Shown here: in pieces, positions 15,516-35,832 of the stretch
Numbering within the stretch: the first letter of the stretch is position 1
How the letters are laid out: the number at the start of each line of letters is the position of its first letter
From: Deltaproteobacteria bacterium
GTDB lineage: Bacteria > Desulfobacterota > Binatia > Binatales > Binataceae
Direction of reading: 5' to 3'
Assembly: GCA_021799495.1 (NCBI GenBank)
Contig: JAJZAI010000034.1
Coordinates: 1-39,563 of the forward strand
Length of the DNA: 39,563 nt
Position numbers and translations under genes: made by a program
The notes under the pieces: generated by a model
What the model was told of the DNA's origin: nothing
What the model saw: only the letters and a program-made list of their open reading frames with translations
Databases searched by the model: none

Positions 15516-15527
15516 GAGTCCTCCAGA

Positions 15528-16496: not shown

Positions 16497-17506
16497 CCGT
16501 GGGTGCGCGGCGCGGACGGCTCCCCGGAATCGCCGCGATGGATCGCGCGGACGATATAATTCGGGCGGCGCCGCACTTCGATATAGATTCGGCCGACATA
16601 TTCGCCGATCAGGCCGAGCGCCAGGAACATCAGGCCGACGAAGAAAAACAGCACCGCGAACAGGGTCCAGAGCGCGCCCTCCTGCTGCGGGCCGTAGATG
16701 AATCGATGGGCCATCAGGACGGCCGCGAAAATCGCGTCAAGCATGAAGATGCCGATTCCGGTCAGGCTGAGCGCCCGCATCGGCAGCATCGAGAAGCCCG
16801 TAATGAGGTTGAGGCTGAGATGCGCAAGGCTGAAAAGATTGTATTTCGATTCGCCGGCCGCGCGTTCGGCGTGCTCGACCGGGATTTCCGCCACGCGCTT
16901 GGCGAAAGTGTTCGCGAGCGCCGGGACGAAGGCGGCCTTCTCGTCGCATTCGACCACCGTGTCGATAATGTGGCGGCGATAGGCGCGCAGCATGCATCCG
17001 TAGTCGTGCATCGGCACGCCGACGATCGCGGAAGTCACGCGGTTTTGCAGGCGCGACGCGAGCCGGCGGTAGGTGCGGTCCTGCCGCTCCTCGCGCCATC
17101 CGCCGACGACGTCGTTGCCGGCGTCAATTGCCGCGATCAGTTTGGGAATTTCCTCCGGCGGGTTTTGCAGGTCGGCGTCAAGCGTGACGACGATATCGCC
17201 GGCGCAGTTGCGAAAGCCGGCGAGAATCGCCGAATGCTGGCCGAAATTGCGCGCCAACTCGATCACGCGGACACGCGGATCATCGGCCGCGAAAGCGCGC
17301 AGGATTTCGAGCGAGTTGTCGGCCGAGCCGTCATCGACGAAAACCGCCTCGCAGGCGCGGCCGAACGCGGAGATAACCGGTTCGAGCCGGGACCAGAGCG
17401 CGTGCAGGTTGGCCGCTTCGTTATAAACCGGAATTACGATCGAAATCTCGGGCGCGGGATTCGCCGCGGCGCCGCTCAGGCGGGAGATTTTTCCTGCAAC
17501 GCTCAA
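16493..17506 (-). CDS. arnC: undecaprenyl-phosphate Ara4FN transferase
   Basis: Family 2 glycosyltransferase, 337 aa, moving formylated Ara4N from UDP to undecaprenyl phosphate at the inner membrane. It shows I-S-I-V-I-P-V-Y-N-E (21-30), V-F-V-D-D-G-S (56-61), the metal-binding D-A-D (110-112) followed by L-Q-N-P-P-E-E-I-P, and D-Y-G-C-M-L-R-A-Y. Two C-terminal membrane segments (about 240-262 and 275-300) are typical of ArnC/GtrB. The start appears to be TTG at 17506, immediately after a stop codon, with AAGG upstream. A dolichyl-phosphate-mannose-synthase-type specificity is the alternative, but the arn context argues for ArnC. It is the first gene of the minus-strand arn operon seen here. 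Confidence 0.91.
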   Translation of the reverse strand: MSVAGKISRLSGAAANPAPEISIVIPVYNEAANLHALWSRLEPVISAFGRACEAVFVDDGSADNSLEILRAFAADDPRVRVIELARNFGQHSAILAGFRNCAGDIVVTLDADLQNPPEEIPKLIAAIDAGNDVVGGWREERQDRTYRRLASRLQNRVTSAIVGVPMHDYGCMLRAYRRHIIDTVVECDEKAAFVPALANTFAKRVAEIPVEHAERAAGESKYNLFSLAHLSLNLITGFSMLPMRALSLTGIGIFMLDAIFAAVLMAHRFIYGPQQEGALWTLFAVLFFFVGLMFLALGLIGEYVGRIYIEVRRRPNYIVRAIHRGDSGEPSAPRTHG

Positions 17507-17637
17507 TTAGGCCTTCGCTAAACCGCTTGAATTTTCGATTCTGGCGCGTCCGGCGCGTTCATACAACCGTCGAGCGGCGCCGCTGGATATTGTGTCAGAC
17601 GCCGCGCCGCGGCTAAAGATTCCGCCAGCCGGGGCGG

Positions 17638-17666
17638 TTGACCAAGCTCACGATGGCTCGTAGATT
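17638..17666 (+). promoter_or_regulatory. promoter of arnT
   Basis: TTGACC (17638-17643), a 17-base spacer and TAGATT (17661-17666) make a convincing housekeeping promoter. Initiation seven bases later would fall at about 17673, only three bases before the GTG start of arnT, so the mRNA may be leaderless or nearly so. No PmrA-type CTTAA direct repeat was found in the arnC-arnT interval. Confidence 0.55.
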
Positions 17667-17675
17667 CGGGGGTTC

Positions 17676-19475
17676 GTGAGCCGCCAGCGCCGCGCCGCTC
17701 TGATCGGCGCAATCTTCGCCGTCGCAGTGACGATATTTCTCGCCGGACTGGGCCGCCCGCCATTGTTCGAGCCTGACGAGGGCCGTTATGCCGAGGTCGC
17801 GCGCGAGATGCTGGCGGGGGGCGACTTCGTTACTCCGCGCAACGATTTCGTGCGGTATTTCGAGAAGCCGCCGCTGGTCTATTGGACCACCGCCGCGGCG
17901 ATACGAGTTTTCGGACGTGACGAATTCGCCGCGCGCCTGCAAGCGGCGATCTTCAGCGCGGGCCAAGTAGCGGTAACCGCCGACCTCGGCGCCGCGATGT
18001 TCGGTTTGCCGGCCGGCGTGCTCGGCGCGGCCGCATTGATGCTGAGTCCGTTGTTTTTCGCGTTCGCCCGGTTCGCGACGCCGGATCCGGCGCTGGCGTT
18101 CTTCATGACCGCGGCGCTCGCGATATTCTGGCGCGCGGCCCATCCGCCGGGCTTCGCCACGCGCCGATCGCGCAACCTGATGCTTGGAGCGGCGGCGATG
18201 CTCGCACTGGGCACGCTGGCGAAGGGGCCGGTCGCGTTGGCGCTCGTTGGAGCGATCGCCTTGGCGTGGCTGGTACAGCAGGGGCGGGTCCGGGACGCCA
18301 TACGGGCGCCATGGATCGGATGCATCGCCGTGTATCTGGCGCTGGTGGTTCCGTGGTTTGCTTTGGCTGCCTATCGCAACCCCGGATTTCTCAGTTTTTT
18401 CATTATTCACGAACATCTCCATCGTTACCTCGACAATAACGAGCATCAGTGGGGGCCATGGTTTTTCATCCCGATCGTGATTGGCGGGGCATGGCCGTGG
18501 GTATTTTTTGTTCCGTTCGCATTCGATGCAGGTCGCCAAGAGTCACTCTCCGCGACTGAAGCCGCCGAGGACGGGAATCCGCTGGAATTTTCAAAATTGT
18601 GTTTGAAAAGCGCGAAGATTGGACCGGCGATCGCCTATTTATCCATCTGGTTCAGCGTTATTTTCGTCTTTTTTTCGATTCCAGCATCGAAACTTGGCGA
18701 GTATATCCTGCCCGCATTTCCGTCTGTGGCGATCCTGAGCGGTCTGGGTCTGACGCGGCTTCCACGATTCGGTCACAAACTGCGGACCGAGATTCTATTC
18801 GTGCTTGCAACAATCAATATTGTGCTGACGGTAGCGGTAACGGTGGCAGCCTTCGAGATCCGCCGGTCTCTGGTCGTGGCGATCGGAAACGACGCAATCG
18901 TCGCGGCGGGTGCACTTGCCGTCGTGTCGCTTGCGGCATTGGCGATCGCTTGGCTAAGGCGTGAGGCGGTGACGGTTTGGCCGATCGCGGGGGCGCTGGC
19001 GATCGGCATGATGGTCGTGCTGGGCGCGATGGCAAAGGCGCGGGAAGATGCGGAACCGTTCACTTCGTGTCGCAAGCTCGCGCACGACGTTTCGCCGTAT
19101 CTGGACGCCGGATGCGTCCTGGCTTCGTATCGGCATCAGATTCAAGCGTTGCCGTTCTATCTCGAGAAGCGCGAAGTTCTGATCGGATATCGGGGCGAGC
19201 TGGCGCCATTCGGCGACAGCGCCGATGCGGCTCCAACCTTTATTCCGACCGATCGGCGTTTGGCCGGCGAATGGTCGTCGCGGCCGTGCGTCGTGGTTAT
19301 TGCGGATCAACGCGATGTAACTCATTTGGAGGCGTTGCTGAAGCCGGCTCCAACGATCATCGGACGCGAAGGAAAGAAAGTGGCGCTGTACAAAGGATCG
19401 ATGGCGTCTTCCGGCCGGGGATCGTCGGCACGTCCGAACTTAATCGAGCATTTTCCCGGCAGGCCGGACGAGTAA
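17676..19475 (+). CDS. arnT: ArnT-like family 39 glycosyltransferase (lipid A Ara4N transferase)
   Basis: Integral membrane glycosyltransferase, 599 aa, that would transfer Ara4N from undecaprenyl phosphate to lipid A on the periplasmic face. After the first membrane helix comes F-E-P-D-E-G-R-Y-A-E-V-A-R-E-M (31-45) with the acidic pair Asp34/Glu35. F-E-K-P-P-L-V-Y-W follows; both are hallmarks of ArnT/PMT proteins. Many membrane segments and a soluble C-terminal part follow. It starts at GTG 17676, the only start that keeps the first helix. It diverges from arnC. Other GT39 acceptors are possible, but its position beside arnC, arnA and arnD supports ArnT. Confidence 0.88.
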   Translation: MSRQRRAALIGAIFAVAVTIFLAGLGRPPLFEPDEGRYAEVAREMLAGGDFVTPRNDFVRYFEKPPLVYWTTAAAIRVFGRDEFAARLQAAIFSAGQVAVTADLGAAMFGLPAGVLGAAALMLSPLFFAFARFATPDPALAFFMTAALAIFWRAAHPPGFATRRSRNLMLGAAAMLALGTLAKGPVALALVGAIALAWLVQQGRVRDAIRAPWIGCIAVYLALVVPWFALAAYRNPGFLSFFIIHEHLHRYLDNNEHQWGPWFFIPIVIGGAWPWVFFVPFAFDAGRQESLSATEAAEDGNPLEFSKLCLKSAKIGPAIAYLSIWFSVIFVFFSIPASKLGEYILPAFPSVAILSGLGLTRLPRFGHKLRTEILFVLATINIVLTVAVTVAAFEIRRSLVVAIGNDAIVAAGALAVVSLAALAIAWLRREAVTVWPIAGALAIGMMVVLGAMAKAREDAEPFTSCRKLAHDVSPYLDAGCVLASYRHQIQALPFYLEKREVLIGYRGELAPFGDSADAAPTFIPTDRRLAGEWSSRPCVVVIADQRDVTHLEALLKPAPTIIGREGKKVALYKGSMASSGRGSSARPNLIEHFPGRPDE

Positions 19476-23265: not shown

Positions 23266-24426
23266 TCACGGGCCGGCAGCTCCGGCGCGGTAATAAACCA
23301 CGCCCTCCATCAGGCGGCGGGCCGTCCGGTAAACCGTGGCTTGACGCGCATGCCATCCGCGCTCCGCGCGCGAAACCTCCGCGTCAACCACGGTCACGCC
23401 GGACGGCTGGCCGATACGCACCGGCTCGGTGGGGTTATCCCCGGGTTTCGCAAGGCGATGCGCCAAGCTGCCGGGAATACGGGTGGAGACCGCCAGACAC
23501 ATCGCGCCGGTGAGCGGGACGGCGCGATGCGGCTGGCCGAGGGACATCATGCGGACGTGAATGTTGGTCTCGGACGCGGCGAGTTCCGCGCCCGATAGCG
23601 TGCGCGCGGCGCGCGGCGGCGCAATCGCGGCGACCTTCGGAATACTGGGAATTTTGCGGGCCGACTCGGCGTTGGGCGCGATTCCCATCCGCAGGCTCGC
23701 GGCGACGCGAATCGCTTCGAGCCGGGCGAGCAATTCCGGGCGCGCGTCGATCTCCTCCGGCATTTCGATTCCGGCCATGCCGAGCGCATCGGCCGCGACA
23801 AACACGCATGGATTCGCCGCATCGACGAGCGTGGCTTCGATTTCGCCGAGGCCATCCACGGAGAGCCGATCGGCTGGATTGCCGGTCGGGAGCAGGCGGC
23901 CGGTCGCGGCGCCGCCGGGATCGAGGAATTCAAGCCGAATCGGCGCGCCGCTGCCGGCGACGCCCGGCAATACGAAATCGCCATCGACGGCGGCGCGGCC
24001 GCCGTCCATCGCGAATCGCGCGACGATTAGTTTGCTGGTGTTGGTGTTGAAAATCCGGATGATCGCCGCGTCTTCGGCGCCGCGTACGAGTCCCTCATCG
24101 ACGGCGAACGGGCCGACGGCGGACGACATGTTGCCGCAGTTGCCGCGGTAATCGACGCTGGCGTCGCGGATGCCGACCTGAGCGAAAGTGTAATCGACGT
24201 CCGCGTCCGGATGGCTCGGCGGACCGATCACACAAATTTTCGAGAGTGACGAAATGCCGCCGCCCATTCCGTCGAGCTGGCGTCCGTTGGCGTCCGGACT
24301 GCCCATCAGGGCGAGAAAAATCGGCGTCCACAGTGCGCGTTCGCGCGGCAGATCTTCAGCCCGCAGCATCAGGGCGCGGCTCGTGCCGCCGCGCATGAAA
24401 ACCGCTTTCAGGCCAATTTGACGCAT
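23266..24426 (-). CDS. PrpF-family aconitate isomerase / 4-oxalomesaconate tautomerase-like protein
   Basis: 386 aa, diaminopimelate-epimerase fold. PrpF isomerises 2-methyl-trans-aconitate to the cis form; relatives tautomerise 4-oxalomesaconate. It shows M-R-G-G-T-S-R (11-17), D-G-M-G-G-G-I-S-S-L-S-K (52-63) and R-G-N-C-G-N-M-S-S-A-V-G-P-F-A. Lys63 and Cys97 are spaced as the catalytic Lys73 and Cys107 described for PrpF. It starts 29 bases after the flavoprotein gene at 24456 and is probably cotranscribed with it. The neighbouring PrpB-like lyase on the other strand supports a role in aconitate or methylaconitate chemistry. Confidence 0.9.
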   Translation of the reverse strand: MRQIGLKAVFMRGGTSRALMLRAEDLPRERALWTPIFLALMGSPDANGRQLDGMGGGISSLSKICVIGPPSHPDADVDYTFAQVGIRDASVDYRGNCGNMSSAVGPFAVDEGLVRGAEDAAIIRIFNTNTSKLIVARFAMDGGRAAVDGDFVLPGVAGSGAPIRLEFLDPGGAATGRLLPTGNPADRLSVDGLGEIEATLVDAANPCVFVAADALGMAGIEMPEEIDARPELLARLEAIRVAASLRMGIAPNAESARKIPSIPKVAAIAPPRAARTLSGAELAASETNIHVRMMSLGQPHRAVPLTGAMCLAVSTRIPGSLAHRLAKPGDNPTEPVRIGQPSGVTVVDAEVSRAERGWHARQATVYRTARRLMEGVVYYRAGAAGP

Positions 24427-24455
24427 CGTTGGAACTGCCCGCGGCGTTCCCGCAA

Positions 24456-25922
24456 TCAGCCGCGCGCGGCGTTCGCGCCGGCGATCCGTCCAAAGACGGC
24501 GCCAGACATCAGGCCCGAACCGCCGGGATAATTGTTATGGAAAAGGCCGCCGACCATTTCGCCGCACACGTAAAGACCCTCGATCGGCCGCCAATCCGTG
24601 CCGATGGCCTGCGCGTGCTCGTTGATTTTCAGGCCGCCGAAAGAAAACGTGATGCCGCCCGTCACGGGCCACGCGAGAAACGGCGCCGTATCCAGCTTGC
24701 GCGCCCAATTCGATTTCGGCAGCGCAAGGCCGCGCGTCGCCATCCCGTCGCGATCGCCGGGATTGAATTCGCCATGGCCGGCGGCGGCGTTGTAATCGGC
24801 GATCGTGCGCAGGGCGGTCTCATGGTCGCAGTCGAGCTGTCGGACCAGTTCGGGCAGGGTATTCGCGGCGAAGGGGTCGCTGGTCGAGTAGCGCGGCTCA
24901 AGCAGTTCGCGGGCTTTTGCGTCGAAGATCTGGTAGGCGACGCCGCCGGGCTGGTTCAGAATGATTCCGCCGAATTTGGCGTAGGTGAAAAACGCCTGGT
25001 CTTCGCCCTCATCGACGAAGCGTTGGCCGAGGCGGTTGATCATCAGGCCATACGGATAAGACAGGCGGTTGGTTTTGTCGGTCAGTTTGCGATCGCCGAA
25101 CGGCGGCGCCTCGGCATGAATCGGCGTGGCGTGGCAACCGCTCCAGTTGCCGGCCGGCATCGCGCCGATTTCCAGGGCCATCCGCAGACCGTCGCCCTGA
25201 TTGTAGCTGGTGCCGCGAACCTTGGCGTGATCCCATGGCCGGCCGAGATATTGCGCGCGCCACGCGGCGTTGGCTTCGAAACCGCCACATCCGAGCACGA
25301 CCGCGCGGGCGTCGAGTTCGTGAACGCCGGCGGGGTCGCGCACGACGACGCCGATCACGCGGCCTCGGGTGTCCTGGCGCAAGCGCGCCGCGGCGGTTTC
25401 GTAACGGATTTCGACGCCGTGGCGCTGCGCCGTCGCGAACCACATCCGGGACAGCCCGACGCCCTCATTCGCGGCGCGAACGATCGCGCCCTTGGGCCAT
25501 TTGATTACGTTGCCGACCCGCACCGCGCCGAGCGAAATCGCGGGTTCGAACCGGATTCCCTGATCGGCCATCCAGCACGCCGTGGCAAAGGAATTTGAAA
25601 TAAGAATTTCGCCGAGTTCGGGATCGGTGCGGCCGGAAGTCATGCGGCGCAAATCGGACCAGAACAGATCGCGCGGATAAGCCTCGACGCCCTCGACGAA
25701 TCCGGGCAATTCGCGCGCCTTGGGCACGAGCCGCAAAATTTCGTCAACCTCGCTGAACGCGATGCGCAGCAGGCCGCCGCTATAATGAGTGTTGCCGCCG
25801 CGCAATTCCTCGGGCGCTTTTTCCAGCACCAATACGCGATTGGCGCCGTTCATCCGGGCCGAAACGCTGGCGGCGAGTGCGGCGTTGCCCGCGCCAGCGA
25901 CGATAACGTCATATGCCGTCAT
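24456..25922 (-). CDS. FAD-dependent tricarballylate dehydrogenase-like flavoprotein (TcuA-like), copy 1
   Basis: Fumarate-reductase/succinate-dehydrogenase flavoprotein family, 488 aa from the ATG at 25922 (GGAAGG 12 bases upstream); the longer frame to 26069 runs into the divergent gene. The Rossmann motif is V-A-G-A-G-N-A-A-L, followed by V-L-E-K-A and R-G-G-N-T-H-Y-S-G-G. V-L-G-C-G-G-F-E-A-N, R-F-V-D-E-G-E-D and a C-terminal G-G-L-F-H-N-N-Y-P-G-G-S-G-L-M-S-G complete the FAD site, closely as in TcuA. TcuA oxidises tricarballylate to cis-aconitate. There is no TcuB-like electron acceptor in the window. Transcription runs on into the prpF-like gene. Confidence 0.87.
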   Translation of the reverse strand: MTAYDVIVAGAGNAALAASVSARMNGANRVLVLEKAPEELRGGNTHYSGGLLRIAFSEVDEILRLVPKARELPGFVEGVEAYPRDLFWSDLRRMTSGRTDPELGEILISNSFATACWMADQGIRFEPAISLGAVRVGNVIKWPKGAIVRAANEGVGLSRMWFATAQRHGVEIRYETAAARLRQDTRGRVIGVVVRDPAGVHELDARAVVLGCGGFEANAAWRAQYLGRPWDHAKVRGTSYNQGDGLRMALEIGAMPAGNWSGCHATPIHAEAPPFGDRKLTDKTNRLSYPYGLMINRLGQRFVDEGEDQAFFTYAKFGGIILNQPGGVAYQIFDAKARELLEPRYSTSDPFAANTLPELVRQLDCDHETALRTIADYNAAAGHGEFNPGDRDGMATRGLALPKSNWARKLDTAPFLAWPVTGGITFSFGGLKINEHAQAIGTDWRPIEGLYVCGEMVGGLFHNNYPGGSGLMSGAVFGRIAGANAARG

Positions 25923-25974
25923 GATTCGCGAGTGCCTTCCGAATAACCGGTTTGCCGAATGATCTCCGCGCGAT

Positions 25975-26004
25975 TTGACTGTATCGATCGCGCGACCGGA
26001 TAAT
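25975..26004 (+). promoter_or_regulatory. strong promoter with operator-like palindrome, divergent control region
   Basis: TTGACT (25975-25980), an 18-base spacer and GATAAT (25999-26004) make a near-consensus promoter driving the PrpB-like gene; initiation would fall near 26011. Within the spacer, CGATCGCGCGACCG (25985-25998) is a 14-base palindrome with one mismatched pair, placed where a repressor would block RNA polymerase. The whole interval between the divergent genes is 98 bases. No regulator gene is adjacent. Confidence 0.6.
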
Positions 26005-26020
26005 TGCACAATCCGCATGG

Positions 26021-26956
26021 ATGCGGGTATCGACAATGACGTGGCTCGACAACGACGGATACGATCCAACGCCCGCCGGCGAGCGCCTTGCCCGGCTGTG
26101 GCGGGAGCCAGGCATTCTGCAAATACCGGGCGCGCATAACGCGCTGGCCGGATTGCTGGCGAAGCGCGCCGGCTTCAGGGCGCTCTATCTGTCGGGCGCG
26201 GCGCTCAGCGCGAGTCTCGGCCTGGCGGACCTTGGAATCATCGGGCTCGACGAGTTGTGCCTGTTCACCCGCACGATCGCGCGGGCGACCGCGTTGCCGG
26301 TGATCGTTGACGGCGACACCGGCTACGGCGGAATTCTCAACGTGATGCGATTGGTGCGCGAACTGGAAGACGCGGGCGCCGCCGCGGTGCAGATTGAAGA
26401 TCAGTCGCTGCCAAAAAAATGCGGGCATCTGAATGACAAGCGGCTGGCCGGCGCCGACGAGATGGCGGCGAAAGTCGCGGCGGCGGTTCGCGCACGCCGC
26501 CATCTGCGGATAATCGCGCGCACCGACGCGGCGGCGGAGGAGGGAATCGATGGCGCCATAACGCGCGCGCGGCTTTATCGGGCGGCCGGCGCCGACGCGA
26601 TTTTCCCCGAGGCGTTGACGAGCGCCCAGATGTTCCGCGAATTCGCGCGTGCGCTCGATGCGCCGCTGCTGGCCAACATGACCGAATTCGGACGCACGCC
26701 CTATTTCACCGCCGCGGAGTTCGAGAATTTCGGCTTCAAAATGGTTATCTGGCCGGTTTCGTCGCTGCGGGTCGAAGGCGCCGCGGTGCGCGACCTGTAT
26801 TCCACGCTGATGCGCGACGGGTCGGCGGCGGCGATGCTCGAGCGAATGCAGACGCGGACGGAACTGTACGATACGATCGGCTACAACGAATACGAGGCGC
26901 TCGACGCGTCGATTGCGAAGAGCGTTCCGCCGCCCGATCGCCGTGCGCGGAAATAG
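26021..26956 (+). CDS. isocitrate lyase/PEP mutase family protein (2-methylisocitrate lyase-like)
   Basis: TIM-barrel lyase, 311 aa, of the PrpB/oxaloacetate decarboxylase group. The metal-binding V-D-G-D-T-G-Y-G (96-103), the V-Q-I-E-D-Q segment and the signature K-K-C-G-H (132-136) with catalytic Cys134 are all present. This favours C-C lyase activity over PEP mutase activity, which lacks that Cys. R-T-D-A near 168 also fits. The start is either ATG 26021 or ATG 26036; the predicted transcript begins only about 10-25 bases earlier, and neither has a clear Shine-Dalgarno. It is followed 38 bases later by the second TcuA-like gene. Confidence 0.88.
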   Translation: MRVSTMTWLDNDGYDPTPAGERLARLWREPGILQIPGAHNALAGLLAKRAGFRALYLSGAALSASLGLADLGIIGLDELCLFTRTIARATALPVIVDGDTGYGGILNVMRLVRELEDAGAAAVQIEDQSLPKKCGHLNDKRLAGADEMAAKVAAAVRARRHLRIIARTDAAAEEGIDGAITRARLYRAAGADAIFPEALTSAQMFREFARALDAPLLANMTEFGRTPYFTAAEFENFGFKMVIWPVSSLRVEGAAVRDLYSTLMRDGSAAAMLERMQTRTELYDTIGYNEYEALDASIAKSVPPPDRRARK

Positions 26957-26994
26957 CCGGTCGGCGCGGCGCCGGAAGAAAGACAGGGTCAGCG

Positions 26995-28479
26995 ATGAAT
27001 TCGGCGTATGACGTGATCGTCGTGGGCGGCGGCAACGCCGCATTTTGCGCCGCTCTGGCGGCGCGCGAGGCGGGCGCGAGCGTGATTGCGATCGAGTGCG
27101 CGCCCGAAGCGGAACGCGGCGGCAACAGCCGCTTCACGGCGGGCGCGATGCGGGTCGCGTATAACGGCGTCGACGATCTCGCACGCCTGATGCCCGATTT
27201 GACCGCCGAGGAAAAAGCGAACACCGACTTCGGCGTCTATCCGGAAGATCAATTCTACGACGATCTCTGCCGCGTGACGCAATATCGAACCGATCCGCGC
27301 CTTGCCGAAACTCTCGTCGGCCGCAGCTTCGAGACGATGCTCTGGATGCGATCGAAGGGCGTTCGTTTCGCGCCGATTTATGGACGGCAAGCTTTCAAAG
27401 TCGGGGGAAAATTCAAATTTTGGGGCGGCCTGACCGTCGAGGCCTGGGGTGGAGGTCCGGGACTGATCGACGGTCTATATGGAATAGCGGCGCGCGGCGG
27501 AATCGATATCGCGTATTCCACCCGCGCGCTGAGATTGATTCACGACGACGGCGGCGTCCACGGCGTGGTCGTGCGCCGCGACGGACGGACCGAAACGATC
27601 GCGGCCAAAGCCGTCGTGCTCGCGACCGGAGGTTTCGAGGCGAACGCGGAATGGCGCACGCGCTATCTCGGCCCCGGATGGGACCTCGTGAAAGTGCGCG
27701 GCTCGCGCTTCAACACCGGCGACGGGATCAGGATGGCGCTGGAGATCGGCGCGATGCCGCGCGGGAATTGGTCAGGATGCCACGCGGTGGGATGGGACCG
27801 GAACGCGCCCGAATTCGGCGATCTCAGCGTCGGCGACGGCTTTCAGAAGCATAGCTACCCGTTCGGTATAATGGTGAACGCCAGAGGCCGCCGGTTCGTG
27901 GACGAAGGCGCCGACTTCCGCAATTACACGTACGCCAAGTACGGGCGCGCAATCCTCGAGCAGCCGGGGCAATTCGCCTGGCAGGTCTTCGATCGCAAAG
28001 TCGCCCATCTGCTGCGCGACGAATATCGGATCAAGCGAGTGACGAAAGTCGGCGCGCAAACGCTGGAGGAGCTGGCCGGCAAGCTCGAAGACGCCGATCC
28101 TGCGGGATTTTTAGACGAAGTGCGCGTCTATAACGGAGCCGTCCGCACCGATATTCCGTTCAATCCGAACATCAAGGATGGGCGGCGCACCGAGGGTCTC
28201 GCGATTAACAAGTCGAACTGGTCGAACACGATCGACACGCCGCCGTTCGAGGGTTACGCGGTTACCTGCGGAATAACCTTCACCTTCGGAGGATTGTCGA
28301 TCGACGATGCGGGCGCGGTGATCAACACCGACGGCGAACCGATTTCCGGCCTGTACGCCGCCGGCGAACTGGTGGGCGGGTTGTTCTACTTCAATTATCC
28401 GGGCGGCACGGGCCTGATGTCGGGTTCCGTGTTCGGGAAAATCGCGGGCGCCGCGGCGGGCCGGCGCGCCCGCGCATGA
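26995..28479 (+). CDS. FAD-dependent tricarballylate dehydrogenase-like flavoprotein (TcuA-like), copy 2
   Basis: 494 aa, paralogous to the flavoprotein at 24456 across its length. FAD site: V-V-G-G-G-N-A-A-F, I-E-C-A and R-G-G-N-S-R-F-T-A-G-A-M-R, the last being very TcuA-like. L-A-T-G-G-F-E-A-N, R-F-V-D-E-G-A-D and G-G-L-F-Y-F-N-Y-P-G-G-T-G-L-M-S-G follow. It differs from copy 1 in the substrate-facing middle, with a W-G-G-L-T-V-E-A-W-G-G-G-P-G segment. It lies 38 bases after the PrpB-like gene, so the divergent promoter serves one flavoprotein on each side. The copies may act on different acids. No signal peptide is seen. Confidence 0.88.
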   Translation: MNSAYDVIVVGGGNAAFCAALAAREAGASVIAIECAPEAERGGNSRFTAGAMRVAYNGVDDLARLMPDLTAEEKANTDFGVYPEDQFYDDLCRVTQYRTDPRLAETLVGRSFETMLWMRSKGVRFAPIYGRQAFKVGGKFKFWGGLTVEAWGGGPGLIDGLYGIAARGGIDIAYSTRALRLIHDDGGVHGVVVRRDGRTETIAAKAVVLATGGFEANAEWRTRYLGPGWDLVKVRGSRFNTGDGIRMALEIGAMPRGNWSGCHAVGWDRNAPEFGDLSVGDGFQKHSYPFGIMVNARGRRFVDEGADFRNYTYAKYGRAILEQPGQFAWQVFDRKVAHLLRDEYRIKRVTKVGAQTLEELAGKLEDADPAGFLDEVRVYNGAVRTDIPFNPNIKDGRRTEGLAINKSNWSNTIDTPPFEGYAVTCGITFTFGGLSIDDAGAVINTDGEPISGLYAAGELVGGLFYFNYPGGTGLMSGSVFGKIAGAAAGRRARA

Positions 28480-28504: not shown

Positions 28505-29932
28505 TCACTCGTCGCGCAACAGCCTTCCGACCATCGATTTGAATTCCCGCGCGACTGGCGAGCGGTAAAACCGGGCCCGTGTGAAGTAGGGATCTCCCGA
28601 ATAGAACCATTCGTACTGTAGCTGGCGGCTGCCGAACGGCTCGCCGATCATGTCCCATGCGAGTTTGAACAGGCGCACGCGGTCGCGGGCGCCCAGATTT
28701 TTGCCGCGAAGATATTTTTCGAGATAAGCGCCGATCTCTGGATGGGCGAAATCCTTTTCGGTCGGGGTCATGATCAGGCCGCTGCCGCTGAGCTGGCGGA
28801 TCACTTCGGCGGCCCGCATCTGCATCTGCGGAATCAGCACCCACAGGGTCGCCGCGAGCGAGCGATGCGGCGCGCCGCGCGTTGCGCCCCATGTCACTTC
28901 ATGCGCGCCCGCGCGAATCAGGCCGCTCAACGCCTCGGCGTTCGCGACCGTCTCGCCGATCTGCGCCTGAAGATGCGGCGTATCGGTGCGCCCGATCGCT
29001 TCCGCCAGATGACACGCCAGTCCCGCAAGGAAGCGCAGCTTGACCATCCCGCGAATCGACCCCTGCAGCATCGCATAGCCGGGAGTGCGCGCCATCAGGC
29101 TGTTGAAGATCTCGACGTCGCCGTTGATGAAGACGCGCTCCCACGGAACGAGCACGTCGTCGAACACGGCGAGCGCGTCCTCTTCGTCGAAGCGCGAGCT
29201 GAGCGGACGATCGAAGCGGCTGCGGCCGGTGTCGTATGTTTCGCGGCAGATGAACTTCAAACCCGGCGTGTCCATCCTGATCGCGAAACAGAGCGCATAC
29301 GGTTCTTCGCCCGGCCGGCGCGGATAGAACGGACCGACCCAGATTTCGTTGGCGAACGGCGCCAGCGTCGAGAGCATTTTGGCGCCGCGGACGACGATTC
29401 CGGCGTCGGTTTCGCGCACCAGCCTCAGTGCGGCGAACGGATCGTCCTGTTCGGCCGGACCCTTCGAGCGATCGATTTGCGGATCGACTAGTGTATGCGT
29501 GAGGCACCAATCGCGATCGCGCACCTCCTCGTAGTAGCGCACGAGGTTCTCGCCGAAACGCGCTTCGCGGCGGCCGACAAATGCATGCACGGTCGCGGCG
29601 TCGCTCAAGAGCGCGTTGCAGAAATCCGGCATCCGGCCCATCAACCCGAAAGTATGATCGGCGCGGATTTCTTCGGCGCGCGCCCGCCGTTCGGCCGCTT
29701 CGATGGAGTCCGCCATCAGGAAGGACGCGCTTACCGGTGCGCCGTCGCGCGGCGATGGAAACGTAAGCTCGCCGATCCGTTCGTGTTGCAGATCGTAGAG
29801 CGACGCCATGGTCGCGACGACGCCGCGAAAAGGATCGTATCGGGTTACGTCCTTGACGCGTTCTCCATTGACGAAAATCGAGCGGCCGTCGCGCAGGCTC
29901 TCGACGTATTCGCTGCCGGTGCGAATTCCCAT
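28505..29932 (-). CDS. 4-hydroxyphenylacetate 3-monooxygenase-like oxygenase (HpaB family)
   Basis: Acyl-CoA-dehydrogenase-fold, FADH2-using aromatic hydroxylase of the HpaB/PvcC group, 475 aa, close to the family's usual size. Recognisable parts are G-I-R-T-G-S-E-Y-V-E-S-L-R-D-G-R at the N-terminus, Y-D-P-F-R-G near 32, H-T-L-V-D-P-Q-I-D-R, and the G-A-K-M-L-S-T-L-A-P-F-A-N-E segment. D-D-V-L-V-P-W-E-R-V-F and a C-terminal Y-L-R-G-K-N region follow. Such enzymes ortho-hydroxylate phenols with reduced flavin from a separate reductase (HpaC), which is not in the window. It is the last gene of a six-gene minus-strand operon. 4-Hydroxyphenylacetate itself may not be the substrate. Confidence 0.9.
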   Translation of the reverse strand: MGIRTGSEYVESLRDGRSIFVNGERVKDVTRYDPFRGVVATMASLYDLQHERIGELTFPSPRDGAPVSASFLMADSIEAAERRARAEEIRADHTFGLMGRMPDFCNALLSDAATVHAFVGRREARFGENLVRYYEEVRDRDWCLTHTLVDPQIDRSKGPAEQDDPFAALRLVRETDAGIVVRGAKMLSTLAPFANEIWVGPFYPRRPGEEPYALCFAIRMDTPGLKFICRETYDTGRSRFDRPLSSRFDEEDALAVFDDVLVPWERVFINGDVEIFNSLMARTPGYAMLQGSIRGMVKLRFLAGLACHLAEAIGRTDTPHLQAQIGETVANAEALSGLIRAGAHEVTWGATRGAPHRSLAATLWVLIPQMQMRAAEVIRQLSGSGLIMTPTEKDFAHPEIGAYLEKYLRGKNLGARDRVRLFKLAWDMIGEPFGSRQLQYEWFYSGDPYFTRARFYRSPVAREFKSMVGRLLRDE

Positions 29933-29979
29933 ATTCCTCCGGTGGACAAAAACGACAGATTGATGATGGCGAGGCGCGC

Positions 29980-30474
29980 CTAGCTGGTTAGCCCTTTTAC
30001 CAACGCTCCGATTCCCGGTTCATCCTTCGCGAACTCCAGTTTTCCGGAACCCATGTAGTCATTCGCGAATTGCGCGCGATGCTCTGGCGTGCCGTCGCAA
30101 TAGACCTCGATCTGATGGTCGTCAGGGTCGCGAAAATAGATGCTCATGCTGACGCCGTGATCGACCGTCGAGATAATCGGCACGCCCAGTCGTTTCAGCT
30201 CCGCATGCGCCGCGCGCAGATGGTCTTCGTCGCGCAGCCGAAAGGCGATATGAACGAGGCCGATTTCGCCTTTCCGCGGCCCCGGAGCGTCAGCGCCGAC
30301 TTCGACGCAGGCCAGCTCATGATGGTCGCGGGCGTTGCTGGCGAAAAACGCCATCTTGATCACGGGAATCTCCATCATCTGGGTGAGACCGAGCACTTCC
30401 GTGTAGAACTTTTTCGAACGTTCGAGGTCGCGAACCTTGATCACCACGTGTCCGATCCGGTCTGGAACGATCAT
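29980..30474 (-). CDS. VOC-family (extradiol dioxygenase/glyoxalase-like) metalloprotein
   Basis: 164 aa, vicinal-oxygen-chelate fold with paired beta-alpha-beta-beta-beta modules. The first module begins R-I-G-H-V-V-I-K-V-R-D-L-E-R-S-K-K-F-Y with His9. His75 (L-V-H-I-A-F) and Glu123 (H-Q-I-E-V-Y) complete a plausible two-His-one-Glu metal site, and F-R-D-P-D-D-H fits extradiol enzymes. It lies 47 bases upstream of the HpaB-like gene in the same operon, which suggests it opens a catechol made by that hydroxylase. A glyoxalase or isomerase role cannot be excluded, because the protein is shorter than classical two-domain ring-cleavage enzymes. Confidence 0.85.
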   Translation of the reverse strand: MIVPDRIGHVVIKVRDLERSKKFYTEVLGLTQMMEIPVIKMAFFASNARDHHELACVEVGADAPGPRKGEIGLVHIAFRLRDEDHLRAAHAELKRLGVPIISTVDHGVSMSIYFRDPDDHQIEVYCDGTPEHRAQFANDYMGSGKLEFAKDEPGIGALVKGLTS

Positions 30475-30552
30475 CGGAGCAATCCTCCTTGCGCGCGAAT
30501 CGAATTCAATCGCAACCGCATGCGTCTCATTTTCGCTGATTGTCGAACGGCT

Positions 30553-31248
30553 TCAATAGAGCCGCGGACCGATAAATACGCCGTCGATAAAATGTTTGGT
30601 CGCCGTCGCGGCCTTGCGCGGCAGCTTCATCAGGTCGTCCGCGAGCCGCCGCGCCGCGTCCAGCAGTTCGGCGCGCGCCACGACCCGATGGATCATTCCG
30701 AGATCGTAAAGTTCAGGCGCGGTATAATGCCGGCACATCACCATCGCCTCTTTCGCGCGCCACGGTCCGAGCGCCGCCGCCATCGCAAGCGCCGGACCGC
30801 CGGTGAACGCGGCGCCTAATTCGACCTCGGGCACCCAAAACTGGGCCTCTTGCGCCGCGATGACGAAATCGAACGCGACCGCGAGCGCCCATCCGCCGCC
30901 GACCGCGTGCCCGTTCACGGCGGCGATAGTGTGGCAATCCAGCCGCGTTATCTGATCGAAAATGCGGCCCACCATCCGCGCCACGCCCTGATTATGCTCG
31001 CGGAACAGCCTGGCGCGCTCGCGCGGATCGCTGACGCCCTTGGCTGCCGACATGTCCGCGCCGGCCGAGAACGCGGAGCCTGCGCCGGTCACGATTAGCG
31101 CGCGTATATCGCGATCGTTGCGGACGGAGCGCACCAGGTCGTCCAGTTCCGCCATCACGGGGCGATTCATGCAGTTGCGGCGTTCGGGTTGATTGAAAGT
31201 AATCGTCGCGACCGGACCGTCGCGCTCGAACAAAAAATATTCGGCCAT
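30553..31248 (-). CDS. crotonase-family protein, operon copy 2
   Basis: Crotonase fold, 231 aa, slightly short for the family. It shows F-N-Q-P-E-R-R-N-C-M-N (18-28), A-F-S-A-G-A-D-M near 59-66 and V-N-G-H-A-V-G-G-G-W near 111-120. The first catalytic Glu position is Ala121, while the second is retained as Glu141 (V-P-E-V-E-L-G). Simple hydration is therefore doubtful; hydrolase, isomerase or C-C cleavage chemistry is possible. It is 45 bases downstream of a similar gene, and both share an unusual F-W-x-P-E-x-E-L-G motif. Confidence 0.88.
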   Translation of the reverse strand: MAEYFLFERDGPVATITFNQPERRNCMNRPVMAELDDLVRSVRNDRDIRALIVTGAGSAFSAGADMSAAKGVSDPRERARLFREHNQGVARMVGRIFDQITRLDCHTIAAVNGHAVGGGWALAVAFDFVIAAQEAQFWVPEVELGAAFTGGPALAMAAALGPWRAKEAMVMCRHYTAPELYDLGMIHRVVARAELLDAARRLADDLMKLPRKAATATKHFIDGVFIGPRLY

Positions 31249-31293
31249 CGCGTTTCGCTTGTTCCTATACTCTTGCTGAAAGGGCAGGCGATT

Positions 31294-31977
31294 TCAGTCG
31301 AGCGTGAATCCGTTCAGATTGGCTTTCGCCTGCAACACGGCCTGACGTTTACGGGCCGCTATGTAACGGGCGATTTCATGGGCCGCCGGCATCAACTGAT
31401 CCGCCTTGACCACCCGATTCAGCAGGCCCCATTGTAGCAACTCCTCGGCCCGAAACCGCCGGCACATCAGAACGATTTCTTTTGCTCGCGCCATCCCAAC
31501 GTCGAGGGCCAAACGGTACTCAAGGTCTCGGGGTCCCGGCGCGCCAAGTTCGATCTCGGGCAGCCAGAATTGCGCGCCTTCGACGGCAACCCGGAAGTCG
31601 CAGCACAGCGCGATAAACCATCCGCCGCCCACGGCGTAACCGTTGACCGCCGCTATCGTCGGGATGTCGTAATTGGTCAGCAGGTTGAAAACCCGCCGCA
31701 GTATCCGCATCCGTTTGGGCGTGACATTGCCGAAAAGCTTCTCGCGCTCGGCGGGATCGGTGACGCCTTTCATGTGGCTTAGGTCGGCGCCCGCGGAGAA
31801 CGTGTTGCCCGCGCCGGTGATTATCAGCGCGCGCACATCGTCGTCGTCGCGGATGGCGAGCAGGTTCTCGAACATCTCGCTCACACTGCGTTCGTTCAGC
31901 GGATTGCGCTTGACCGGAAAATCGAAGGTCAGCACGCCGACGTTGCCGGTCTTCCCGAATTTGAAATACTCGCCCAT
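31294..31977 (-). CDS. crotonase-family protein, operon copy 1
   Basis: Crotonase fold, 227 aa. It is related to the next gene, sharing V-R-A-L-I-I-T-G-A-G, F-S-A-G-A-D-L-S, G-V-T-D-P-A-E-R and A-V-N-G-Y-A-V-G-G-G-W. The first catalytic Glu is replaced by Phe121, a bulky change at the active site. The second is kept (Glu141 in L-P-E-I-E-L-G). It sits between the LLM gene (60 bases upstream) and copy 2. No CoA ligase is encoded nearby, so whether the substrate is a CoA thioester is open. Confidence 0.88.
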   Translation of the reverse strand: MGEYFKFGKTGNVGVLTFDFPVKRNPLNERSVSEMFENLLAIRDDDDVRALIITGAGNTFSAGADLSHMKGVTDPAEREKLFGNVTPKRMRILRRVFNLLTNYDIPTIAAVNGYAVGGGWFIALCCDFRVAVEGAQFWLPEIELGAPGPRDLEYRLALDVGMARAKEIVLMCRRFRAEELLQWGLLNRVVKADQLMPAAHEIARYIAARKRQAVLQAKANLNGFTLD

Positions 31978-32037
31978 CGAATTCCGCCTCCCGCGGTCGG
32001 GTTTTCCTGGCCGAAACCGGATACGTTCCCGCCGGGA

Positions 32038-33102
32038 TTAATATTTCGCGATTACTTCGCGGCTGAACTCTTCGATCATCTCGCGGCCGTTATTCACCAC
32101 CTGAATCGCGATTTGTTTCAATCCAGCCGCTTCGAGCGCCTTGAGCCGCGCGATTATTTCATCGGGCCGGCCCGTCAGCGTCATCGAGCGCACGAGAGTC
32201 TCGTCGATAAATTTTTCTTCGCCGGGCCGCATGTAGATCAGGTGCCCTTCATGCATTTCAAGATATCGCCGATCGGCTGGCGTCGCGCTTTTTGCCACGT
32301 ATTCATCGCGATAGCGCTTCCACAAATCGAGCAGCGGCGCGGGCAAACCGTCACTAACCGCGGATTGTTCCCAAAGCGCATGCAGGAACACGACCGCGAA
32401 CGGTCCGACCCGCTCGATCACGCGCGGCGACACGGCCGATTCCCCGTCGCGCAGAACGCATCCGGTCGTCAGCATCGCCGTCGGCATTCCGTCCGCCGCG
32501 CGTCCGGCCCGCGCCGCGCCGCGTTTTACCGCCGCGAATTTTTCCTTGAAGCGCGGCGCGTCGGCCAGCACGGTCATCCATCCGTCGCCGATTTCGCCCG
32601 CCAGCTCGAGCGCCTTCGGCCCGTCCGCCGCGATATGGATGGGAATTGGATCTTTCAGATTGATGTAACCGTGATTCGGATGCAGAAACCGAATCCACCG
32701 TTCGCGCTCGCCGTCGCGATACAGCACATCTTCGCCGCGCAGCAGCTTGCGTGTCGTCTCGACGTATTCGCGCAGCCGTTTCAGCGGGACCGGCGGCAGG
32801 CCCATCGTATTGCGACCGGTGAAGCCGGTGCCGATGCCGAGCACGGTGCGACCCGGCGCAAGCTGATTGATCGTCGCGATCGAATGCGCCGTCACCGGCT
32901 CGATCCGGTTCGACGGTATCGCCACGCCCGTCGCGAGCTTCATGCGCCGCGTGCGTTCCGCCGCCATCGCCATGCAGACGTAAACGTCGCTGTAGAGCAT
33001 CTGCGAATCGTAAAACCACGTCTGCGTGAAGCCGTTCTCTTCCGCGATTACGAGATCTTTCCACGCGTCCGGCCGCGCCGGGTATGCAAGTCCGAATTCC
33101 AT
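32038..33102 (-). CDS. LLM class flavin/F420-dependent oxidoreductase
   Basis: Luciferase-like family, 354 aa from the ATG at 33102 (an adjoining TTG at 33105 is less likely). The N-terminus M-E-F-G-L-A-Y-P, the W-F-Y-D-S-Q-M strand, the K-L-A-T-G-V-A-I-P and G-R-T-V-L-G-I-G-T-G-F-T-G segments and a later P-I-P-I-H-I-A-A-D-G-P-K-A-L-E-L-A are typical of F420-dependent reductases related to methylene-tetrahydromethanopterin reductase. Cofactor choice (F420 or FMN) cannot be settled from sequence alone. It is the second gene of the minus-strand operon, 43 bases after the amidohydrolase. Confidence 0.88.
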   Translation of the reverse strand: MEFGLAYPARPDAWKDLVIAEENGFTQTWFYDSQMLYSDVYVCMAMAAERTRRMKLATGVAIPSNRIEPVTAHSIATINQLAPGRTVLGIGTGFTGRNTMGLPPVPLKRLREYVETTRKLLRGEDVLYRDGERERWIRFLHPNHGYINLKDPIPIHIAADGPKALELAGEIGDGWMTVLADAPRFKEKFAAVKRGAARAGRAADGMPTAMLTTGCVLRDGESAVSPRVIERVGPFAVVFLHALWEQSAVSDGLPAPLLDLWKRYRDEYVAKSATPADRRYLEMHEGHLIYMRPGEEKFIDETLVRSMTLTGRPDEIIARLKALEAAGLKQIAIQVVNNGREMIEEFSREVIAKY

Positions 33103-33145
33103 CAACGATTCCGTTCCCGCGGCCGTATCTCCGCCGCGTCGCTCT

Positions 33146-34270
33146 CTATTGCAGGTTGTAGTAGCGCTTGGCGCCGCCCGCCAGCACCTTGTGCAACGTA
33201 TTCGCCGGCAACCCCATCGCTTTGATCATTTGCGGCGCATTCGGAAAACCGTCGAGATGCGGATAATCGGTCGCCCACAAGATATTGTCGGCGCCGATAT
33301 AGTCCGCCAGCAACGCCAGCGATTTTTCCACCGGCTCGAACGAGATGAAGCACTGCCGCCGGAAAATCTCGCTCGGCCGCGCATGCAGGCCGGTGTCGTT
33401 CATGCCCTTGTCGTCGAAATGCCGATCCATCCGATCGAGCCATCCGGCCATCCAGCCGCCGCCTGATTCAAGAAACGCGATTTTCAACCTCGGATGGCGA
33501 TCGCAAATGCCGCACATGATGAAGCTGGTCGCGGCCGCCATCATCTCGAACGTATGCGCCACGCAATGACGCACCGCGCCGCCGCGCGTAAAGCGATCCA
33601 TCCCGAGCGTCACTTGGCCGCTTTCCGATCCGCCGTGGATTCCGATCGAAAATCCCACCGCTTCGGCCACGTCCCACAGCGGCTCGAACGCTGGGTCATG
33701 CAGCGCGCGTCCGTTGTACGGATTCGGCCGGATAAACCCCGCGCGGAAGCCCAACTCCTCCGCGGCGAACCGCATCTCGCGCACCGCGCCCTCGACCGAT
33801 TGCATCGGCAACATCGCCGCGCCGAACAGCCGCTCCGGATATGGCTTGCAGTAATCGGCCAGCCAGCGGTTATACGCGCGGCACGCCGCCGCCGAGAATT
33901 CGGGATCCTTCATCGAGCCGAGGAACAGCCCCAGGCTTGGATAGAGAAACGCGGCGTCGATTCCCTCCGCGTCCATGTCGGGAATTCGCGCGTGCGGATC
34001 GAATCCGCCCTTGCGTCCTTCGCTGTACGGGATTTTCGGCGATACCGCGCCGTCGCGCGCGCCGAACGCGCCCACCGCGCCGAAGCTTACGCGCTTCTTG
34101 CCCCGCCCCAGATCGACCGCGTCGTCATGCTCGACCCGGAAAATCTCGCCGCCGTCGGGCAGCGCGACCAGCTTCGGGCAGCCCTCGCGATATTTCGCCT
34201 CGATATATTTTTCCCACAGGTCGATCGGTTCAAGAATATGTCCATCGGCGTCGATGACGTTGTATTCCAT
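33146..34270 (-). CDS. amidohydrolase-2 (ACMSD-like) family metal enzyme
   Basis: TIM-barrel hydrolase or decarboxylase, 374 aa from the ATG at 34270 (GGGGTGA six bases upstream). It starts M-E-Y-N-V-I-D-A-D-G-H with the D-x-D-x-H form of the first metal motif. I-G-I-H-G-G near residue 190, A-H-T-F-E-M-M and F-L-E-S-G-G-G-W follow, then the terminal A-T-D-Y-P-H-L-D-G carrying the conserved Asp. Relatives decarboxylate aminocarboxymuconate semialdehyde or gamma-resorcylate, or hydrolyse ring-fission products. It is the first gene of the six-gene operon, which suggests a late step in the ring-degrading scheme. It diverges from the BioD-like gene. Confidence 0.9.
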   Translation of the reverse strand: MEYNVIDADGHILEPIDLWEKYIEAKYREGCPKLVALPDGGEIFRVEHDDAVDLGRGKKRVSFGAVGAFGARDGAVSPKIPYSEGRKGGFDPHARIPDMDAEGIDAAFLYPSLGLFLGSMKDPEFSAAACRAYNRWLADYCKPYPERLFGAAMLPMQSVEGAVREMRFAAEELGFRAGFIRPNPYNGRALHDPAFEPLWDVAEAVGFSIGIHGGSESGQVTLGMDRFTRGGAVRHCVAHTFEMMAAATSFIMCGICDRHPRLKIAFLESGGGWMAGWLDRMDRHFDDKGMNDTGLHARPSEIFRRQCFISFEPVEKSLALLADYIGADNILWATDYPHLDGFPNAPQMIKAMGLPANTLHKVLAGGAKRYYNLQ

Positions 34271-34383
34271 GACGTTCACCCCGCGCTCTGTTATGCTGAG
34301 CCGAAGCCTAGCCGATTCGCGCCGATTTGCAATGAAAGCCGCTTTCCGCCGATGCGCCCGCTGTTGAAGATCGCTCGTCTCCG

Positions 34384-35085: not shown

Positions 35086-35160
35086 CATCGGGCGACCCTC
35101 CGGATTATCGACCGGAGTGGCGCTGCGCGTCATGACGCGCGGATGGCCGGGAGGCGTTCA

Positions 35161-35832
35161 ATGGCCGATTCTTCAACCGCGTCGCGCATTATCGAAACCG
35201 CAGAGATTCCGTGGGGCGAGATGCGCCCGGGCATCCACGCCAAGCCGCTCTGGGCCGACGAGGCGACCAAGCGGCGCGTGCAACTGACCCGCTTCGATCC
35301 CGGCGCCAGCCTGCCGCGCCATCGCCACGACGGCGACGAGATTCTTTTTGTGATCGAAGGCGCGCTGACCGACGACTTCGGCACGGTCACTGCCGGCAAC
35401 GTCGGCTATCGGCCCAACGGATGCGTCCATACGGTCACGACGAAAAACGGCGCAACCGTCCTCGCCTGCATCACCGGCGGCGTCACTGGCGCCAGCGCCG
35501 GCGACAGCGGTCCGGCGTCGCGGATTATCCGGCTCAACGAAATCGCGTGGGTTGAAGCGCTGCCCGGCGTTCGGCAAAAGCCGATCATCAACGACGAAGC
35601 CGCGCATCGCCGCGTCAGCCTCGCCCGCTTCGATCCGGGCGCACGCCTGAAGGCGCATCGCCATAACGGCGACGAACTGGTCTATGTGATCGAAGGCTCC
35701 AACGCGGATGAATCCGGCGAACTGGTCGCGGGCAATTTGAGTTACCGGCCCAACGGATGCACTCACAGCGTGTGGAGCGTGAACGGCGCGACGGCGATCG
35801 CGATTCTGACCGGCGGCGTCACGCCCGTCTGA
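35161..35832 (+). CDS. bicupin (internally duplicated ChrR-type cupin)
   Basis: 223 aa from the ATG at 35161 (GGGAGG six bases upstream). It consists of two nearly equal cupin halves. Each starts S-R-I-I, continues with R-F-D-P-G-A, a metal-binding H-R-H-x-G-D-E, V-I-E-G, then Y-R-P-N-G-C-x-H and ends T-G-G-V-T. Both halves keep all expected His and Glu ligands, so two metal sites are likely. The function is unknown; bicupins include oxalate and aromatic-ring dioxygenases. It lies 75 bases after bioD and 43 before an LLM gene, as an apparent operon. Confidence 0.87.
   Translation: MADSSTASRIIETAEIPWGEMRPGIHAKPLWADEATKRRVQLTRFDPGASLPRHRHDGDEILFVIEGALTDDFGTVTAGNVGYRPNGCVHTVTTKNGATVLACITGGVTGASAGDSGPASRIIRLNEIAWVEALPGVRQKPIINDEAAHRRVSLARFDPGARLKAHRHNGDELVYVIEGSNADESGELVAGNLSYRPNGCTHSVWSVNGATAIAILTGGVTPV

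Follow-up and report, generated by a model that had tools for sequence, protein, structure and literature searches.

A divergent four-gene locus of a Binatota relative combining two FAD dehydrogenases with PrpF- and PrpB-type enzymes: a possible catabolic module converging on 2-methylisocitrate

Several described systems use enzymes of the families considered here. In Salmonella, tcuABC serves tricarballylate utilisation, and 3-methylitaconate isomerase and 2,3-dimethylmalate lyase belong to nicotinate fermentation. The AcnD/PrpF variant of the 2-methylcitrate cycle is represented by the operon acnD-prpF-prpC-prpB-acnA of Novosphingobium sp. P6W (locus L187). Here we describe a locus with another combination of these families. 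In a 39,563-nucleotide stretch of DNA from an uncultured bacterium (the window; GenBank assembly GCA_021799495.1, contig JAJZAI010000034.1, our contig C2; the genome measures 3.43 Mb and is 98.19% complete), a leftward pair encoding a PrpF-family isomerase and a flavin adenine dinucleotide (FAD) dehydrogenase, TcuA1, diverges from a rightward pair encoding a PrpB-type lyase and a second FAD dehydrogenase, TcuA2 (Table 1). An earlier interpretation made from the letters of the DNA (the sequence-only reading) had placed four genes of these families here; they do lie at those positions, and Pfam and NCBI hidden Markov models (HMMs) agree with the families.

With the Novosphingobium operon the window genome shares the PrpF family, an encoded AcnA and the clade to which PrpB belongs (60% identity), but PrpC, AcnD and PrpD were not detected in it, two FAD dehydrogenases are present instead, and its PrpF belongs to another clade (40% identity). 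Nicotinate fermentation likewise combines a PrpF-family isomerase and a lyase from this superfamily, whereas the window lyase is PrpB-like and FAD dehydrogenases are present. Salmonella tcuABC (PMC10468695) also has an FAD dehydrogenase that the broad TcuA model covers; the window system differs in that a full-length TcuB was not found, the two paralogues fall into separate clades, and three arginines seen in TcuB-linked TcuA are missing. On plasmid pPAN3 of Paracoccus pantotrophus (L028), TcuA1-clade, TcuA2-clade, PrpF, PrpB-superfamily and MmgE/PrpD genes occur together, but the lyase is 38% identical and of another clade, and there is a third TcuA-like gene; the record is unannotated, and its transporter genes were recognised by cluster and by reading. 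Literature searches covering titles and abstract openings returned no description of the module, which appears to be an undescribed, conserved new combination of known enzymes and not a new kind of enzyme.

We hypothesize, and give the idea an even chance, that the four genes form a catabolic module converging on 2-methylisocitrate. Either or both of the FAD enzymes would desaturate a branched, carboxylate-bearing saturated acid with an electron transfer flavoprotein (ETF) as electron acceptor, PrpF would shift the double bond to give an acid of the 2-methyl-cis-aconitate type, a hydratase would add water to yield 2-methylisocitrate or a close analogue, and PrpB would cleave 2-methylisocitrate to pyruvate and succinate. 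The hydratase could be AcnA, encoded elsewhere in this genome, and in several other organisms an MmgE/PrpD protein beside the module may take that role. The order of the steps, AcnA as hydratase and ETF as acceptor are what we infer, and a methyltricarballylate-like acid as the substrate is only a guess. The argument is one of supply: a methylisocitrate lyase in a genome where no enzymes making or dehydrating 2-methylcitrate were found would need 2-methylisocitrate from another source. PrpF and AcnA could provide it from methylaconitate, and since the FAD enzymes are the sole candidates in the module, we infer that methylaconitate would be made by them. The sequences speak most clearly for the type of lyase, for the chemistry of PrpF at family level, for a conserved module and for the lack of the usual methylcitrate entry enzymes. 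With these and AcnA, the outline proposed earlier (oxidise, isomerise, hydrate, cleave) gains support, while its naming of the flavoproteins as tricarballylate dehydrogenases gains none.

The lyase looks like a methylisocitrate lyase, as the sequence-only reading had it, and is the firmest part of the proposal. PrpB exceeds the cut-off of TIGR02317 for methylisocitrate lyase (396.3 versus 354.4 bits) and falls under that of a second model, NF008455 (303.6 versus 353), as does the PrpB of the Novosphingobium operon (321.7). It carries the K-[KR]-C-G-H loop, where the K-K-C-G-H noticed earlier is kept as K132-K133-C134-G135-H136, and the N-x-T-E-F-G motif (N219-G224), which contributes to binding the succinate part. 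The motif reads N-M-T-E-F-G as in 4iqd, which we take to be a Bacillus protein; 1mum has N-I-T-E-F-G, dimethylmalate lyase N-M-V-E-H-G, petal death protein N-M-I-E-G-G and oxaloacetate hydrolase N-S-V-E-N-G. Among solved structures, 4iqd was the best match (317.4 bits), followed by the PrpB entries 6t4v (234.3) and 1mum (230.4) and, lower, by petal death protein (180.3) and dimethylmalate lyase (163.8). In the PrpB tree, which holds some long branches and excludes hits covering less than 80% of the query, the lyase falls in a clade of 28 of the 39 rows (support 90/95, not starred) that includes the PrpB of the Novosphingobium operon, the sole methylcitrate operon of this kind in the tree. PrpB has matches at 60-67% in 18 plasmid records; 17 carry the annotation prpB, and in two of the 18, both from Paracoccus, a prpC lies under the PrpB match. 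A paralogue in the window genome, on contig C62, has its closest counterpart in dimethylmalate lyase (198 bits).

As the sequence-only reading had remarked, the module contains no prpC, prpD, acnD or tcuB, and tests across the whole genome gave the same picture (tcuC was not searched for); these absences rest on one 98.19%-complete draft and, for PrpD, also on its genus. The PrpD (MmgE/PrpD) family had no match in this genome or in any of the 7 genus genomes searched. Two aconitase-family matches were found in the genome, a 484-residue frame on contig C36 and AcnA, which passes its own model (1312.3 bits, cut-off 945) and fails that of AcnD (828.5 against 1419.85). One of two citrate synthases passes citrate synthase models; the second passes no listed cut-off (TIGR01800, 255.4 against 421.3), those of 2-methylcitrate synthase included, leaving no recognisable PrpC in the genome. 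Because PrpC and PrpD/AcnD were not found, we rejected an ordinary methylcitrate cycle for this genome. Three methylmalonyl-CoA-mutase family matches suggest that propionyl-CoA has another route. The genome also encodes one pair of ETF genes and a 616-residue frame with two ETF matches, PF05187 for ETF-quinone oxidoreductase had no match in it, and in Bradyrhizobium and Variovorax plasmids ETF genes adjoin TcuA2-clade genes or lie within about 7 kb of them.

The Lys/Cys pair of PrpF pointed out earlier is kept: Lys63 and Cys97 are invariant in all 16 rows of the PrpF alignment and, in a phmmer alignment, correspond to the active-site residues K73 and C107 of Shewanella PrpF. The protein stays under the cut-offs of TIGR02334 for PrpF (317.5 against 440.55 bits; the AcnD-linked PrpF of L187 reaches 688.2) and of NF033377 for oxalomesaconate tautomerase (313.6 against 440). 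Its nearest solved structures are 3-methylitaconate isomerase 3g7k (304.7 bits), 2h9f (279.3) and PrpF 2pvz (254.6). A tree of 84 of the 113 rows (the 29 left out are mostly from Betaproteobacteria, and hits covering less than 80% of the query were excluded) puts it in a clade of 65 (support 97/87), with the annotated oxalomesaconate tautomerases of L027, L189 and L191 in another. Judged by these comparisons, PrpF is neither of the AcnD-linked nor of the oxalomesaconate type.

The search for conserved neighbourhoods that had been suggested found the divergent layout in other genera. PrpF was matched in 22 of 96 genomes searched (in G023 over just 38 residues), and 9 of the 20 PrpF loci of related genomes have the four-gene divergent layout (L030-L036, L040 and L047, the last two cut by contig ends). 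One further locus, L039 of G012, retains all four genes as two pairs 8.6 kb apart, and the other 10 are without the layout. All four genes are likewise retained in G010, with PrpB-TcuA2, TcuA1 and PrpF on three contigs. G005 has no PrpF match, as its 3132-base contig with TcuA2-PrpB-TcuA1 stops short of PrpF, and G024 has PrpF, PrpB and TcuA2, with TcuA1 not over the cut-off. PrpB was searched for in 40 genomes, and 26 family genomes are common to both searches. Among these, PrpF occurs in 11, all with a PrpB that is at least 70% identical; two have such a PrpB without a PrpF match (G005, G008), and 13 have neither (Fisher p = 2e-5, a value that ignores kinship, 6 of the 11 being from one genus).

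Beyond these relatives, we scanned named genomes with the 16-row PrpF alignment as query and kept the best 80 of at least 543 confirmed loci, from which L051, L052 and L055, on the same contigs as G035, G004 and G010, were removed as duplicates here and from the trees. Short loci that were later represented by longer stretches were also left out. At the 77 remaining loci PrpF is accompanied by a TcuA-like gene (at least 45% identity) in 34, a PrpB-like gene (at least 35%) in 19, an MmgE/PrpD gene (identity taken from the cluster representative) in 28 and any of the three in 44; 13 of the 19 PrpB-like genes reach at least 55% identity. Six housekeeping genes taken from the window as controls (leuS, purA, serC, galT, Hsp20 and RodZ) occur in none of the 77 and a seventh, serA-like, in 11. 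Where PrpF is at least 58% identical (39 loci), TcuA-like, PrpB-like and MmgE/PrpD genes are found in 26, 16 and 14; below 58% (38 loci) they are found in 8, 3 and 14. These counts make the loci look more independent than they are, L119 and L123 being nearly identical and the Bradyrhizobium loci closely related. With the layout kept in other genera and these control genes, we ruled out chance adjacency.

Individual loci show the same families in varied company. Relatives of PrpF, PrpB and TcuA1 stand together at about 60% identity in Bradyrhizobium (L054, L059, L064, L066), and L076 has PrpB-TcuA1-PrpF in the divergent order of the window. In several other organisms an MmgE/PrpD gene occupies the equivalent place, a feature hidden from the sequence-only reading, and such a gene also adjoins PrpF in the Binatota locus L035 (G018). 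By annotation, a Hydrogenophaga plasmid has TcuA, 3-isopropylmalate-dehydratase genes and PrpF, a Shinella plasmid tcuAB, acnA and PrpF, a Paracoccus versutus plasmid TcuA, three MmgE/PrpD genes, PrpF and two tripartite transporter sets, and a Sagittula plasmid prpB-PrpF.

Three side observations concern these loci. Variovorax VAI-C (L188) has amidohydrolase, prpF, SDR, two FAD protein, flavin monooxygenase and prpB genes in one row; its FAD proteins are 26-29% identical to TcuA1 and TcuA2, and it may be a parallel version of the module. Genes annotated as phosphosulfolactate synthase adjoin PrpF or a TcuA2-clade gene on Bradyrhizobium and Paracoccus plasmids (L164, 3755-4549; L165, 11087-11872). 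Genome G041 (locus L131; same class, 4.5 Mb) has 51 MmgE/PrpD matches, a striking expansion, and 27 matches to the TcuA model, weak ones included.

TcuA1 and TcuA2 are indeed paralogous (48.9% identity across 483 positions). Both pass the broad NCBI model NF006130 (cut-off 369 bits; scores in Table 1), and on sequence the label TcuA holds only for that model. TIGR02485, for tricarballylate dehydrogenase, fails for both (267.1 and 279.7 bits, cut-off 372.55) and is passed by the TcuB-linked TcuA of L105 (570.3) and L027 (597.2). In a tree of 81 rows, TcuA1 falls in a clade of 37 (support 98/92), TcuA2 in a clade of 36 (100/93), and five TcuB-linked TcuA form a third clade (100/100) apart from both; some branches are long and the outer rows unsure, hits covering less than 85% of the query were excluded, and the TcuA row of L142, an E. 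coli plasmid, is one of two pieces (393 residues). Just one of these three clades of the broad model has TcuB beside the gene, among loci scanned for TcuB, or annotated. A residue comparison leaving out five long or odd TcuA rows gave Arg at TcuA2 positions 284, 312 and 424 in 5/5, 5/5 and 4/5 TcuB-linked rows, whereas at least 94% of the TcuA1 and TcuA2 rows (36 and 35 rows) have N/Q, T and T there; column 284 is less sure because of an indel nearby. The assignment of the flavoproteins as tricarballylate dehydrogenases is not supported: besides lacking these arginines, they lie outside the TcuB-linked clade and fail TIGR02485. Taken together, these three results suggest that the substrate may carry fewer carboxylates, and TcuA1 and TcuA2 probably take one of different charge.

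Aligned by phmmer with fumarate reductase, TcuA2 has Y313 at R402, Y468 at R544 and T428 at H504, and its H263 stands at H365 of flavocytochrome c3, which has a role in fumarate binding. The predicted model of TcuA2 (predicted local distance difference test, pLDDT, 90.2) best matches the fold of urocanate reductase 6t86 (Z 41.0, root-mean-square deviation (rmsd) 2.5, 434 aligned), with fumarate reductase tied (Z 40.7, rmsd 3.8, 434 aligned) and 3-ketosteroid dehydrogenase (Z 37.8, rmsd 3.3, 434 aligned) and cyclohexanone dehydrogenase (Z 37.0, rmsd 3.5, 439 aligned) close behind. The last two lie within about 4 Z units of the best match, so the fold does not decide on a steroid dehydrogenase identity. 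We rejected that identity on HMM scores, in line with the sequence-only reading, as the steroid dehydrogenase model NF009478 gives 121.3 bits for TcuA1 and 133.5 for TcuA2, far below NF006130.

The genes within each pair are 29 bp (PrpF/TcuA1) and 38 bp (PrpB/TcuA2) apart. The 98-bp control region described earlier is right for the first ATGs (25923-26020), but several relatives begin PrpB at MTWL or MNWL, and PrpB therefore probably starts at the later ATG, giving a true gap of 113 bp. A promoter-like TTGACT-18-GATAAT directed at PrpB lies at 25975-26004 (mean 0.2 in shuffles), and ATTGCACAA follows the promoter-like element (25975-26011). We read the stretch upstream of PrpB in 11 relatives: TTGACT and ATTGCACAA are both present in five of the window's genus (L030, L031, L033, L040, L179), ATTGCACAA occurs without TTGACT in the three of genus g13 (L034-L036), and both are absent in L032, L047 and L177.

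Table 1. Features of the window. Positions are those of the whole stretch.
Feature	Position	Strand	Details
PrpF-family isomerase	23266..24426	-	386 aa; Pfam PrpF 395.6 bits
TcuA1, FAD dehydrogenase of the fumarate reductase superfamily, PrpF partner	24456..25922	-	NF006130 542.4 bits
Divergent control region	25923..26035	.	98 bp up to ATG 26021, 113 bp up to ATG 26036
PrpB, 2-methylisocitrate lyase type	26021..26956	+	311 aa (306 from ATG 26036); TIGR02317
TcuA2, second FAD dehydrogenase, PrpB partner	26995..28479	+	NF006130 587.6 bits
Row of genes, probably a separate operon	28505..34279	-	HpaB-type hydroxylase, VOC protein, two short enoyl-CoA hydratase-like proteins, LLM oxidoreductase, amidohydrolase 2

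Several observations weigh against a module converging on 2-methylisocitrate. The separate clades of TcuA1 and TcuA2, their failure on TIGR02485 and the replacement of the three arginines by Q/N, T and T count here, as does a 3-methylitaconate isomerase as the nearest solved relative of PrpF. The window PrpF also lies outside the AcnD-linked clade (L187 with the prpF-annotated L188 and L190; support 100/100). Eight family genomes (G007, G008, G009, G013, G014, G019, G021 and G023, the last with the 38-residue match) carry TcuA2-clade genes but no full PrpF match, so TcuA2 may serve another purpose. Beside the module we recognised no gene for an importer; the MFS gene adjoining PrpF is of the EmrB type. 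Among the named loci, 33 of 77 have none of the three partners, a PrpF under 58% identity has a TcuA-like gene in just 8 of 38, and the lyase is under 55% identical in 6 of 19. The lyases of L028, L058, L105, L108 and L117, all under 55%, belong to another clade, and the end reaction may therefore differ in other organisms.

Much of this bears on what else the genes might do. The locus could be the final part of a pathway that degrades ring compounds or terpenoids, in which the flavoproteins would desaturate oxo or cyclic intermediates like ketosteroid or cyclohexanone dehydrogenases and PrpF and PrpB would finish the fragments, a possibility that we regard as unlikely. The hydroxylase, VOC and hydratase-like proteins next door fit it, with HpaB adjoining TcuA2 in six Binatota loci (L030, L031, L032, L033, L040, L034), and so do a Rieske-type oxygenase recognised nearby by sequence reading (with a weak NF052579 match only), the closeness in predicted fold to the two dehydrogenases, and the surroundings of the module in L119 and L123, which include aldehyde dehydrogenase, an acyl-CoA dehydrogenase cluster member and, by reading, ligase-like and thiolase-like genes. 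However, HpaB is not beside the module in L035 or L036, the NF009478 scores are far lower than those of the broad TcuA model, and TcuA2 retains a histidine, H263, at the H365 position. The same HpaB and VOC neighbours, and nearly equal PrpF scores on the two NCBI models, would suit a PrpF that acts in a pathway for gallate or protocatechuate as 4-oxalomesaconate tautomerase and has incidental neighbours, but we consider this extremely improbable given its score under the NF033377 cut-off, the placement of the annotated tautomerases in another clade, and the company of TcuA1 or PrpB that PrpF keeps in distant organisms.

Alternatively, the substrate may be tricarballylate or trans-aconitate, with TcuA making cis-aconitate, PrpF interconverting aconitates, AcnA forming isocitrate and the lyase releasing glyoxylate and succinate. 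Shewanella PrpF shows aconitate isomerase activity (PMC5690661), related loci have TctC or TctAB transporter genes or AcnA, and the L105 locus also holds a TcuB-linked TcuA. This route seems quite improbable to us, as TcuA1 and TcuA2 fail the model that the TcuB-linked TcuA of L105 and L027 pass and lack their three arginines, the lyase clusters with methylisocitrate lyase, and full-length TcuB was not found in the genome, where the best match reaches 34.3 bits over about 75 residues. We give little credence to a dimethylmaleate-type route as in nicotinate fermentation, where PrpF would be a 3-methylitaconate isomerase and the lyase would cleave 2,3-dimethylmalate. PrpF does match the isomerase structure better than 2pvz (304.7 versus 254.6 bits), but the lyase carries the PrpB motif and not that of dimethylmalate lyase, and the paralogue nearest to the latter sits on another contig, C62.

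Returning to a module that converges on 2-methylisocitrate, we speculate, with considerable doubt, that it is a widespread, undescribed CoA-free route for methyl-branched tricarboxylates such as butane-1,2,3-tricarboxylate, which would join the lower methylcitrate cycle at 2-methylaconitate, with the two FAD enzymes serving different stereoisomers or desaturating at different carbons, and that Binatota share it with several Alpha- and Betaproteobacteria. Among the matches listed for butanetricarboxylic acid, the papers concern aerosols or ice cores, apart from one item on urease inhibitors. If the proposal is true, genomes with PrpB and without PrpC, PrpD and AcnD would not be broken propionate users and would use a second carbon source entering at methylaconitate. 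Many automatic tricarballylate dehydrogenase labels would then be corrected, as the broad model spans at least three clades.

Two further observations concern the rest of the window. A cupin and LLM pair at 35143-36931 is also found near TcuA1 in G010 (L180) and G012 (L039) despite rearrangement. At 13592-19475, formyltransferase, epimerase and glycosyltransferase genes, the first recognised by HMM match and the other two by reading the sequence, resemble aminoarabinose (arn-type) lipid A genes.

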